NCBI GenBank assembly: GCA_003223455.1
Contig: QHVE01000024.1
Coordinates: 23,468 to 63,783 of the forward strand
Length of the DNA stretch: 40,316 nt
Source: Gemmatimonadota bacterium
GTDB taxonomy: Bacteria; Gemmatimonadota; Gemmatimonadetes; Gemmatimonadales; Gemmatimonadaceae
Reading direction: 5' to 3'
Below, piece by piece: positions 23,585 to 26,692 of this stretch. The translations under genes and the position numbers were made by a program. Below the pieces are notes generated by a model. It made no database searches. It saw only the letters and a program-made list of their open reading frames with translations, and had not been told where the DNA came from. Each line of letters starts with the position of its first letter. Within the stretch, counting starts at the first letter, position 1.

Positions 23585-24532
23585 TCAGTCGAAGTCGCTG
23601 CGGGATGGACCGAGCACCAGATCCAGCAGACGTTCGAGGTCATCAGCACTGTAGAACGTGATCCGTACGACCCCCCGGTCGTTCCCGAGCGCTTGGACAT
23701 GCACGTCGGTCTGAAGATGCTTCCGTAGCTGCTCTTCGATGCGCTTCGTCGCCGGGTTCGTGCTGGCGCCTGCTGGCGAGGCGGTGGGGACAACGGACGT
23801 TTCGCGCTGAGGCGCCAGAGGCTCGGCCGTGAACGCTCGGGCCCTAGCCTCGACCTCGCGCACGGACAATTGGCGGGCGATGATCTCGTTGTCGAGTTCG
23901 AGTTGTCGGCGCTCGTCCTTGACCGGAAGGAGCGCCCGCGCGTGCCCCGCAGATATTTGGCCGCTCTCAACCATTTGTCGCACAGCAGGTTGCAGCGTAA
24001 GAATACGAAGCAGATTTGTGATCGACGTACGATCTTTACCTACCGCGTCCGCTACCTGCTGCTGCGTGAGACCAAACTCGTCGATGAGTCGCTGATAGCC
24101 TTCTGCCTCCTCGAGCGGGTTGAGGTCCGCTCGCTGAAGGTTTTCGACGAGCGCAAGCGTGAGCATCGCCCGGTCATCGAAATCGCGGATCAGAGCGGGG
24201 ATCTCGGACCAACCCAGACGAGTCACTGCGCGCAGGCGGCGCTCCCCGGCGACGAGCTCCCACTTGCCGTCCCCGCGTGCGCGGACGACCACAGGCTGAA
24301 GCAGGCCACTCGCTTTGATGGATGCTTCCAACTCGGCGAGCTCGGACTCGGTGAACGCCCGACGAGGTTGAAAGCGGTTCGGCTGTATGTCAGCGACGGC
24401 TATCCGCTGCAGGTCGGAGCTCGCCGGCGATTCGCTCTCGACTGGAGAGGACGGCGTCTCGCGCTGCTGCTTGGCAGTGGAGATGAGCGCTTCCAGTCCT
24501 CGGCCAAGCCTACGTGGTGTATCGCCGCTCAT
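23585..24532 (-). CDS. parB: Chromosome partitioning protein ParB
   Basis: ParB is the CTP-dependent clamp that loads at parS sites near the origin and spreads. The 315-residue protein begins RRLGRGLEALIS (the N-terminal ParA-contact peptide). It shows the CTP-binding ParB/Srx motifs PNRFQPRR, GLLQPVVVR and GERRLRA, plus LVENLQRADLNPLEEAEGY. A helix-turn-helix follows (GLTQQQVADAVGKDRTSITNLLR), then ISAGHARALL. The C-terminal dimerisation region ends DLERLLDLVLG. It overlaps parA by 4 bases, so the two are coupled. Confidence 0.97.
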   Translation of the reverse strand: MSGDTPRRLGRGLEALISTAKQQRETPSSPVESESPASSDLQRIAVADIQPNRFQPRRAFTESELAELEASIKASGLLQPVVVRARGDGKWELVAGERRLRAVTRLGWSEIPALIRDFDDRAMLTLALVENLQRADLNPLEEAEGYQRLIDEFGLTQQQVADAVGKDRTSITNLLRILTLQPAVRQMVESGQISAGHARALLPVKDERRQLELDNEIIARQLSVREVEARARAFTAEPLAPQRETSVVPTASPAGASTNPATKRIEEQLRKHLQTDVHVQALGNDRGVVRITFYSADDLERLLDLVLGPSRSDFD

Positions 24533-25362
24533 GCGGATGCCTCGTGCGCCTGATTGTCGATGCTGGTGAACTCGTGGTGCAGCGCGTTCGTCGCTTCCGT
24601 CTCGCGTGCGATCAGCTCGTGGGCGACTGCGATGTAGGCCTGTGCGCCGATGCTCTGCACGTCGTACAGCACGATCGGCTTGCCGAAGCTCGGTGCTTCC
24701 GCTAGGCGGACGTTGCGCGGAACAACGGTGTGGAATACCTGAGCCCCGAAGTAATCGCGAGCGTCCGCCGCGACCTGGCGGGACAGATTGAGTCGAGCGT
24801 CGTACATGGTGAGAAGCACACCAGAGATTGTGAGCGATGGGTTCACGCTATGCTGGATCAGGTGCACCGTATTGAGGAGCTGGCTCAATCCCTCCAGGGC
24901 GTAGTACTCGCACTGGACGGGGATCAAAAGAGCATCCGCTGCCGCCAGCATGTTGAGCGTGAGAAGTCCGAGCGAAGGAGGGCAGTCGATGAGGATGAAA
25001 TCGTACTCATCACGCACTTCCTGCACGGCGTTCCGCATCCGGTGCTCGCGATCAGGCGCATCGACGAGCTCGACTTCGGCGCCTGCCAAGTCAGGCGTTG
25101 CGGGCACCACGTCGAGATGCTGGAACTGAACGCCTCGAATGCGGGTGCTCGGGATGGTCGCCGCTCCGATCAGAATCTCGTACGTCGTTCGCTCGAAGGA
25201 GTCCCGCTCAATTCCTGTCCCGCTCGTCGCGTTGCCTTGGGGATCTCCGTCGATGAGCAGGGTGCGTCGCTCAGCGACCGCGAGACTGGCGGCGAGGTTT
25301 ACCGCGGTAGTGGTCTTCCCCACCCCGCCCTTCTGATTGGCGATCGCGATGACTCGGGCCAC
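24529..25362 (-). CDS. parA: Chromosome partitioning ATPase ParA
   Basis: ParA/Soj is a DNA-binding Walker-type ATPase that moves ParB-parS complexes apart. The 277-residue product has the deviant Walker A QKGGVGKTTTAVNLA at residues 10-24, Walker A' LLIDGDPQGNATSG, and Walker B FILIDCPPSLGLLTLNML. QCEYYALEGLSQLL and TMYDARLNLSRQV complete the family set. There is no N-terminal HTH, so it is the chromosomal (type Ib-like) form. The GTG start at 25362 is preceded by GGGGAG (25367-25372), and this ribosome site overlaps the stop codon of the upstream LAGLIDADG gene. The C-terminus is slightly longer than usual. Confidence 0.97.
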   Translation of the reverse strand: MARVIAIANQKGGVGKTTTAVNLAASLAVAERRTLLIDGDPQGNATSGTGIERDSFERTTYEILIGAATIPSTRIRGVQFQHLDVVPATPDLAGAEVELVDAPDREHRMRNAVQEVRDEYDFILIDCPPSLGLLTLNMLAAADALLIPVQCEYYALEGLSQLLNTVHLIQHSVNPSLTISGVLLTMYDARLNLSRQVAADARDYFGAQVFHTVVPRNVRLAEAPSFGKPIVLYDVQSIGAQAYIAVAHELIARETEATNALHHEFTSIDNQAHEASA

Positions 25363-25371
25363 AAGACTCCC

Positions 25372-25737
25372 CTAACGTTCGACGTCGCTGAAAGGCTCCG
25401 GCGAGGCAGCGGCGCCTCGCTCGAGAGCAAAGAACTCGGAGTGCTGGACCAACCACTGCTCGAACTGCTCGCGTCTCCAGCTCTCGGGTAAGTACGTGCG
25501 GAAGATGGGTATCGCGGCCTTGAGCGCTGGGCCACGGAGGAGCCAGGTGTAATAGTGCCGCGTCTGATGGCGATATGGGCCATAGACGCGCCCCCCAAGG
25601 CGGTCGGCGAGGTGTCGAATCGGAAACGGATCTCTCACGTGCACCTTCACCTGAAGGTACGGCTGGCGGCGGTCGGAGGTGAACGATCCCTCGCCGACAA
25701 TGAGCCCCATAATGTAGCCGATATCGAACTCTCGCAC
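25372..25737 (-). CDS. Small LAGLIDADG-family (homing endonuclease-like) protein
   Basis: A 121-residue protein with a single LAGLIDADG motif, IGYIMGLIVGEGSF at residues 6-19, with Glu16 where the catalytic acid belongs. After it come LQVKVHVRDPFPIRHLADRLGG and a later Y-Y-T-W-L-L-R-G strand, as in the alpha-beta-beta LAGLIDADG fold. One motif implies a homodimer like I-CreI, though it is shorter than that enzyme. It is free-standing, in no visible intron or intein. GTG 25737 is the only reasonable start; an in-frame stop lies four codons upstream and no Shine-Dalgarno is visible. A TAAGAT at 25744-25749 could be the -10 of a leaderless transcript (inference). Its stop overlaps the parA ribosome site, so it is coupled to parA and parB. 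It may act as a nuclease or as a regulator. Confidence 0.75.
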   Translation of the reverse strand: MREFDIGYIMGLIVGEGSFTSDRRQPYLQVKVHVRDPFPIRHLADRLGGRVYGPYRHQTRHYYTWLLRGPALKAAIPIFRTYLPESWRREQFEQWLVQHSEFFALERGAAASPEPFSDVER

Positions 25738-25755: not shown

Positions 25756-25772
25756 TGTTCCACTCTGGAACA
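25756..25772. promoter_or_regulatory. parS-like inverted repeat upstream of the par operon
   Basis: TGTTCCA (25756-25762) and TGGAACA (25766-25772) flank CTC. The 17-base element tgttccactctggaaca resembles the ParB site TGTTCCACGTGGAACA but has three central bases where the canonical site has two, so the half sites are offset by one base. It could be a degenerate parS or an operator for the LAGLIDADG-par operon. A -35 position for that gene would fall inside it. Confidence 0.4.
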
Positions 25773-25831
25773 GAGCCACGTGGCACTGATCTGCTGGCGA
25801 GAGCGAGCAGATCAGACGAGCCACGTGGCAC
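25773..25831. repeat. Nested palindromes with CACGTG cores
   Basis: A 14-base sequence GAGCCACGTGGCAC occurs twice, at 25773-25786 and 25818-25831; each contains the perfect palindrome GCCACGTGGC. Between them CTGATCTGCT (25786-25795) and AGCAGATCAG (25806-25815) form a perfect 10-base-pair stem. Together the arms make a 20-base-pair hairpin interrupted by one small bulge. The shared CCACGTGG is the centre of parS-type sites. A role as ParB sites, nuclease target or RNA structure is not resolved by sequence. Confidence 0.7.
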
Positions 25832-25836
25832 ATAAT

Positions 25837-25868
25837 GCAGAAGAGCCCGCTATATCGGGCTCTTCTGC
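25837..25868 (-). terminator. Strong stem-loop after the SIMPL-domain gene
   Basis: GCAGAAGAGCCCG (25837-25849) pairs perfectly over 13 bases with CGGGCTCTTCTGC (25856-25868) around a 6-base loop. On the minus strand it follows the SIMPL-domain gene stop by about 45 bases, and the trailing ATTATGTG is a poor T tract. It probably ends that transcript before the par operon promoter. Confidence 0.65.
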
Positions 25869-25913: not shown

Positions 25914-26669
25914 TTACTCTCGCGGGACGAAGGTCCAGCGCGCCGTTACAAAGACGTTTACGGTCTGCTGGCCTGGATTGATTGGCGTTTGCTCGGCCAT
26001 CGTAGTCTTACCTCGTGCCGCCATATCGAACATCGGACGAGGCGGCGCGGTCGGGCCCTGCGTCGACAGCTCGAGCAACGCACCGAGCCGCCCACCGGCG
26101 GCCTGAGCCATCGCCTCGGCATCGGCATGAGCGCTCGAAACCGCGAGCGCGATCGCTTGTCGCCTCGGCTCGTCGATTGACGAAGCATAGAACGAGAGTG
26201 AGTTGATCAAGTTCGCCCCGGCACCCAGCGCGGCATCGATGATCGCCCCCGCCTGTTCGATGCGCTTCGATTCTGCGCGAACGGAGTTCGTCACGACGTA
26301 ACCGATCACCTTCGGCGTACCACCCACCCGATCGTAGCTCATCTCGGGGTAAGCCGAGTAACCCTCGGTCGAGAGCTGATCCTTGGGAAGACCGAGGCGT
26401 CCGAGCACATCGAGCACGGCCTTGGTGCGTTCCGCGTTCGACGACGCGGCGGCGGCCGCGGTTGGCGCGCGCGTCTGCACGTTGACCAGCACCGAGACAC
26501 GGTCGGGAGTCACCTTCGCCTCGCCCTGGCCCGAGGTAACAAGCGACGGCGGCTGCCCGCCGCTCAGTGACGTCGAGGATTGCGCGAAAAGCGTCGCAGG
26601 CGCGTTGAACGGCGCTACTCCAGCCAGCGCGGAGGCGATCAGGAGACGAAACCACATCGAACGAATCAT
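25914..26669 (-). CDS. SIMPL-domain (DUF541) exported protein
   Basis: A 251-residue protein of the SIMPL/DUF541 family, periplasmic proteins such as BP26 and YggE with unclear, stress-related roles. It has a signal peptide (MIRSMWFRLLIASALAGVA, cleavage after ATLFAQ near residue 30). The family core follows: LVTSGQGEAKVTPDRVSVLVNVQT, LPKDQLSTEGYSAYPEM, VIGYVVTNSVRAE and a C-terminal VNVFVTARWTF. The ATG at 26669 has GAGGTG 5 bases upstream, better than the start four codons earlier. A 14-base inverted repeat lies 24 bases before the start. It is followed by a strong stem-loop, so it is probably not in the par transcript. Confidence 0.9.
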   Translation of the reverse strand: MIRSMWFRLLIASALAGVAPFNAPATLFAQSSTSLSGGQPPSLVTSGQGEAKVTPDRVSVLVNVQTRAPTAAAAASSNAERTKAVLDVLGRLGLPKDQLSTEGYSAYPEMSYDRVGGTPKVIGYVVTNSVRAESKRIEQAGAIIDAALGAGANLINSLSFYASSIDEPRRQAIALAVSSAHADAEAMAQAAGGRLGALLELSTQGPTAPPRPMFDMAARGKTTMAEQTPINPGQQTVNVFVTARWTFVPRE

Positions 26670-26692
26670 TGTGCACCTCAAGAGCGGAGAGG

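Follow-up and report, generated by a model that had tools for sequence, protein, structure and literature searches.

A LAGLIDADG-family gene at the chromosomal parABS locus of some Gemmatimonadota and its co-occurrence with altered parS sites

Homing endonucleases of the I-CreI and I-CvuI type are located in organellar introns; each chain carries a single LAGLIDADG motif and the enzymes are homodimers. The nearest precedent for the gene described here, though of another family, is the sporulation regulator WhiA (DUF199), a degenerate member of the LAGLIDADG proteins that carries a helix-turn-helix and is needed for parAB induction in Streptomyces (PMC3781837). Literature searches returned nothing joining LAGLIDADG proteins with Gemmatimonadota or their par locus, and those pairing LAGLIDADG or homing endonucleases with ParABS led to the WhiA/Streptomyces work and a general review; we found no earlier report of a link between a LAGLIDADG gene and the par locus.

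Like WhiA, the protein studied here is LAGLIDADG-derived, bacterial, apparently for the most part vertically kept and linked to parAB. WhiA, however, combines a larger degenerate LAGLIDADG domain, in which the catalytic residues are lost, with a C-terminal helix-turn-helix, whereas the present protein has one motif with its Glu retained, no extra domain was found in it, and its gene lies inside the par locus. With I-CreI and I-CvuI it shares one motif per chain and a similar predicted fold, but its gene is free-standing and chromosomal, lies next to parS and shows host-gene-like evolution.

The LAGLIDADG gene of the par operon

The window (the whole stretch of DNA analysed, 40,316 nucleotides) contains a reading frame that starts with GTG, has an in-frame stop just 5' and forms the first gene of a parA-parB operon on a Gemmatimonadota chromosome. 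It is single-copy in the 4.96-Mb genome. The features of the locus are:

25372..25737, minus strand: LAGLIDADG protein, 121 aa, single motif GLIVGEGSF with acidic residue Glu16
24529..25362, minus strand: parA, 9 bp downstream of the LAGLIDADG stop codon
23585..24532, minus strand: parB, overlapping the end of parA
25914..26681, minus strand: SIMPL (DUF541) gene, upstream neighbour of the par operon in the window's family
25837..25868, no strand assigned: hairpin, candidate terminator of the SIMPL gene

On its 3' side the gene is followed by parA (AAA_31, 1.9e-64) and then parB, and its TAG stop overlaps the GGGGAG that precedes the parA GTG start at 25362 (TAGGGGAGTCTTGTG). A preliminary description of this DNA had reported a 121-residue single-motif protein directly upstream of parA, with a stop codon overlapping the parA ribosome site; both points were confirmed on the sequence, and coupling to the operon holds. 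The same description placed mnmG beside the parA interval, which was mistaken: mnmG is the par neighbour in two related families, and the neighbour in the window is the SIMPL gene, of which the hairpin is probably the terminator.

Membership in the LAGLIDADG superfamily, first proposed from the motif, was borne out by a family profile and by the predicted fold. Searched singly, the window protein scored E 0.023 (16 bits) against Pfam PF00961 (LAGLIDADG_1), below the gathering cut-off of 23.1, a score of a divergent single sequence that weakens only the claim to the Pfam family. A four-member family profile matched LAGLIDADG endonucleases in the PDB at 1e-4, and all four members matched PHROG 5046 (window protein, E 1e-7), which is annotated there as HNH endonuclease. 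An AlphaFold2 model built from three sequences (pLDDT 76, pTM 0.63) retrieved I-OnuI variants, I-HjeMI and I-AniI as best Foldseek matches (E about 4e-4 to 8e-4), and VIA aligned it to the bI3 maturase (Z 10.0), I-CvuI (8.8), I-CreI (8.7) and WhiA in 8dy9 (7.6). By profile and by the predicted alpha-beta fold with its LAGLIDADG helix, the protein is thus a member of the superfamily. A Pfam search of the 121-aa protein detected no second domain and no WhiA-type C-terminal helix-turn-helix.

Of the 18 family proteins found, 17 retain Glu16 at the motif end, in keeping with the initial suggestion that nuclease activity is possible; judged from the motif, it would be the catalytic residue. His33 is retained at the same frequency, and one protein, that of G132, has lost both. 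This protein (L068, 2483-2842) reads GLLVGGGSF, with the acidic residue changed to Gly and His33 to Asn, and its gene is inverted relative to parA.

Distribution, age and selection

Profile searches covered overlapping sets of genomes: 179 of the family, 395 of the phylum, 288 of the order, 394 of the class, and 121 and 35 of families f5 and f7, respectively. The gene was found in 18 genomes, from the window's family (f1, 4) and from f5 (10) and f7 (4), and the most divergent copies in these three families of the class share 32-36% identity with the window protein. All placeable copies map to the parA locus; relative to the parS pair they occur on both sides, and relative to parA in both orientations. 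Comparison with relatives, proposed at the outset as a check, found the gene recurring at this locus across three families, and since homologous frames occur there in 17 other genomes, the window frame is not a chance one. Genetic linkage to parA and parS, as expected of a ParABS component, was thereby found. The gene is absent from most genomes and so dispensable. In G364 the contig end falls within parA, and in G467 a second LAGLIDADG fragment at a contig end was left unplaced; this partial copy (G467:C126:3-263, L032/L119) is nearly identical to the first and may be an assembly duplicate.

The gene is co-directional with parA in genera g1, g15 and g79 and divergent in g21, g78, g111 and g153. 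In g78, a genus of f7, genomes without it have the order parA-[parS pair]-pyrF, and in carriers it sits between the parS region and pyrF, divergent from parA. An extra reading frame separates parA from the LAGLIDADG module in G467, yet the altered sites described below still immediately precede the LAGLIDADG gene. Nine g79 genomes yielded a par locus, and all nine carry the gene. A g79 genome without it, G290, was considered as an empty allele and dropped, as it has no parA match and its parS-like match lies away from par genes. A match in G003 (L004, E 4e-4) was likewise discarded: it covered part of the query, lay inside a longer frame of another kind and disappeared when the profile was used.

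The window protein had no close match in phages or plasmids, and one distant match, an IMG/VR contig (L037), among viral sequences; an f5 protein gave a single, non-significant phage match (E 0.6), and a scan of genome contigs matched only the G002 record. The proteins of PHROG 5046 and L037 share a GxYGPY..H core and a small free-standing frame with the family (1e-7, 26-31% identity), but their context is viral, and no par genes were noticed in the flank listed.

Purifying selection on the LAGLIDADG gene is strong: its pairwise dN/dS was 0.04-0.17, against 0.00-0.17 for the parA genes of those pairs, and dS values were alike for both. Its tree separates f1 from f5/f7, as does the ParA tree. 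In AU tests, grouping of the f5 proteins as one clade was rejected (p 0.042) and that of the f7 proteins was not (p 0.077); the f5 result is a weak conflict and a hint of transfer. Presence is patchy, requiring nine changes by parsimony on the ParA tree, and because carriers in g1 and g78 branch outside the non-carriers there (moderate support), losses are suggested. The gene thus appears old in its locus, mostly vertically inherited, often lost and perhaps sometimes transferred. The preliminary description had offered a recently homed element as one possibility; the same-locus copies in three families at 32-36% identity, together with parA-like dN/dS and dS, do not support recent homing.

Altered parS sites upstream of the gene

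parS is among the most conserved of bacterial DNA sites. Non-carriers usually have about two palindromes, GTTTCACGTGAAAC or GTTCCACGTGGAAC, which we take to be the parS consensus and predict to be bound by ParB, ~80-370 bp upstream of parA. A genome-wide scan for GTTYCACGKGRAAC in 42 f5/f7 genomes (14 carriers and 28 non-carriers) found the canonical T form GTTYCACGTGRAAC in 26 of the 28 non-carriers and in none of the 14 carriers. The two remaining non-carriers were G214, which has no parA match, and G280, which has GTTGCACGTG variants. Since the four f1 carriers also have no fully canonical parS, it is missing from all 18 carriers (by genome-wide scan for f5/f7).

At the LAGLIDADG gene, 13 of the 14 f5/f7 carriers have a G form instead, as part of a longer element, GTTTCAC-GGGAAACNTGACG-GTGAAAC, which lies directly 5' of the gene in two copies per genome with its N13 conserved:

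27-bp carrier element, f5/f7 carriers: GTTTCACGGGAAACATGACGGTGAAAC, GTTTCAC-N13-GTGAAAC

Sites with this spacing, 27 in total, occur in all 14 f5/f7 carriers and in no non-carrier locus; G319 has one, with a diverged centre. The element is a pseudo-palindrome in which 18 of 27 positions match its own reverse complement, and its size and symmetry would suit a LAGLIDADG homodimer. It may be a parS split by a 13-bp insertion, or, equally, the product of a T-to-G change at the centre and an added downstream half-site; the insertion is only one possibility because, in g78 genomes that lack the gene, one canonical parS is likewise succeeded by ATGACGG. This copy, in L102 and L103, is the parS nearer parA, and the ATGACGG beside it may be a relic of the carrier element. 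The right half of the altered site, GGGAAAC, resembles the half-site of NBS, the site of Noc (PMC7383237). Noc, however, is a ParB paralogue, and carrier ParB keeps unchanged the residues that align to R173 and G201, which matter for the distinction between parS and NBS (PMC7383237); carrier ParB should therefore still read parS-type half-sites.

The raw association between the gene and loss of canonical parS is near-perfect, yet it counts related genomes many times. Among independent pairs on the ParA tree, gene and canonical parS changed in opposite ways in about 4.5 of 6 and in the same way in none (sign test, p about 0.06), so that the phylogenetically corrected association misses 0.05. 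These data suggest, mainly from f5/f7, that presence of the gene is linked to an altered centromere sequence.

The sites differ in the window's clade. Genus g1 has non-canonical, GTGCCACGTGGCAC-like palindromes whether or not the gene is present, two of them in the window:

25773..25786, no strand assigned: parS-like site 1, GAGCCACGTGGCAC (minus strand GTGCCACGTGGCTC), with an equivalent pair in congeners
25818..25831, no strand assigned: parS-like site 2, GAGCCACGTGGCAC, 45 bp from site 1
25756..25772, no strand assigned: TGTTCC-N5-GGAACA element, between parS-like site 1 and the LAGLIDADG start

Because the sites are the same in G003, which lacks the gene, and in G002, which has it, the link to parS rests mainly on f5/f7. 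TGTTCC-N5-GGAACA lies directly before the gene in three of the four f1 carriers (G000, G002 and G132, the last base differing in G132) and is absent from the fourth, G023, and from every non-carrier examined; it resembles parS-type arms around an altered centre. Between the two parS-like sites, a strong inverted repeat (CTGATCTGCTGGC/GCGAGCAGATCAG, 25786-25815) was seen in the window and was not noticed in congeners.

A proposed role at the centromere and its alternatives

We favour, at about an even chance of being right, a long-resident LAGLIDADG protein of the chromosomal ParABS locus of some Gemmatimonadota that would bind variant parS-type elements before its own gene. This reading builds on the predicted fold, the position of the gene, purifying selection and co-occurrence with altered parS, from which we infer the remaining steps. 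The protein would form a homodimer like I-CreI, each chain contributing one motif, and occupy the elements directly before its gene; once bound, it might autoregulate that gene together with the par operon, and reduce ParB loading at the centromere or steer it elsewhere. Because 17 of 18 proteins retain the acidic residue, the protein's likely origin is an endonuclease targeting canonical parS, which it may still be; if canonical parS is the target, carriers would hold an altered parS that escapes cutting and is immune. Two versions can be distinguished: the host may keep the protein for DNA binding, or it may be an endonuclease for which canonical parS is a substrate and the altered form is spared; the retained Glu favours the latter, and purifying selection with presence in every par-bearing g79 genome favours a host role. 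The domesticated DNA-binding regulator put forward in the preliminary description is compatible and, in a modified form, favoured here: its likely target is the upstream parS pair, which had gone unnoticed.

If the protein were instead an active homing endonuclease with no host role, it would cut the canonical parS of an empty allele and be copied in together with an altered, uncut parS. The joint retention of Glu16 and His33 and their joint loss in G132 fit such an enzyme, as do the absence of canonical parS from every carrier, the patchy presence with nine changes, the gene's position to one or the other side of the parS pair, and the rejected f5 clade. We nevertheless consider it somewhat unlikely, since homing elements are described as degrading after invasion of the target site (PMC13405050), and parA-like dS, strong purifying selection and presence in all nine par-bearing g79 genomes point to vertical descent and upkeep. 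An unlikely further reading makes the protein in effect a fourth ParABS component, an endonuclease targeting parS: carriers would have exchanged canonical parS for an uncut 27-bp variant read by both ParB and the enzyme, a private centromere would be enforced, and foreign or recombined DNA with ordinary parS would be attacked. A purely domesticated, WhiA-like transcription regulator of the par operon, with no nuclease activity and no role at parS as centromere, seems decidedly unlikely. It would agree with a gene that leads the operon and overlaps the parA ribosome site, with palindromes in the promoter region and with the dependence of parAB expression on whiA in Streptomyces (PMC3781837). 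Against it, the acidic residue of the motif is conserved, unlike in WhiA, and its retention suits a nuclease better; in g78 the gene is divergent from parA, before pyrF, and so not simply a par operon leader.

We find it very improbable that the gene is a passenger with no functional tie to par, ParB specificity having changed first and parS with it. Such an order of events would accord with ParB of f5/f7 carriers: G467 excepted, its recognition helix reads VSN or VTN where that of non-carriers reads VAN, with Ser/Thr in place of Ala ahead of the conserved Asn. Against it stand the constant linkage across three families in both orientations and the G467 locus, where the sites follow the LAGLIDADG gene and not parA. 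It could still be that ParB alone reads the altered sites, which would count against the favoured explanation.

On that explanation, the tracking of canonical parS loss by the gene across two families would be a natural case of centromere replacement and, after WhiA, a second, independent route of LAGLIDADG proteins into chromosome biology; it suggests a once-selfish DNA cutter that may now act on the chromosome's own centromere. The protein is small and the sites fit on short oligonucleotides, so the question is directly testable.

Two further features of ParB were observed. All members of genus g1 have Thr at the recognition-helix residue that precedes the conserved Asn. In G006 (L090), a genome with GTGCCACGTGGCAC sites, the Gly of parS-binding ParB at the position aligned to 201 is replaced by Arg (SAGHAR to TTRHAR), a Noc-like change.
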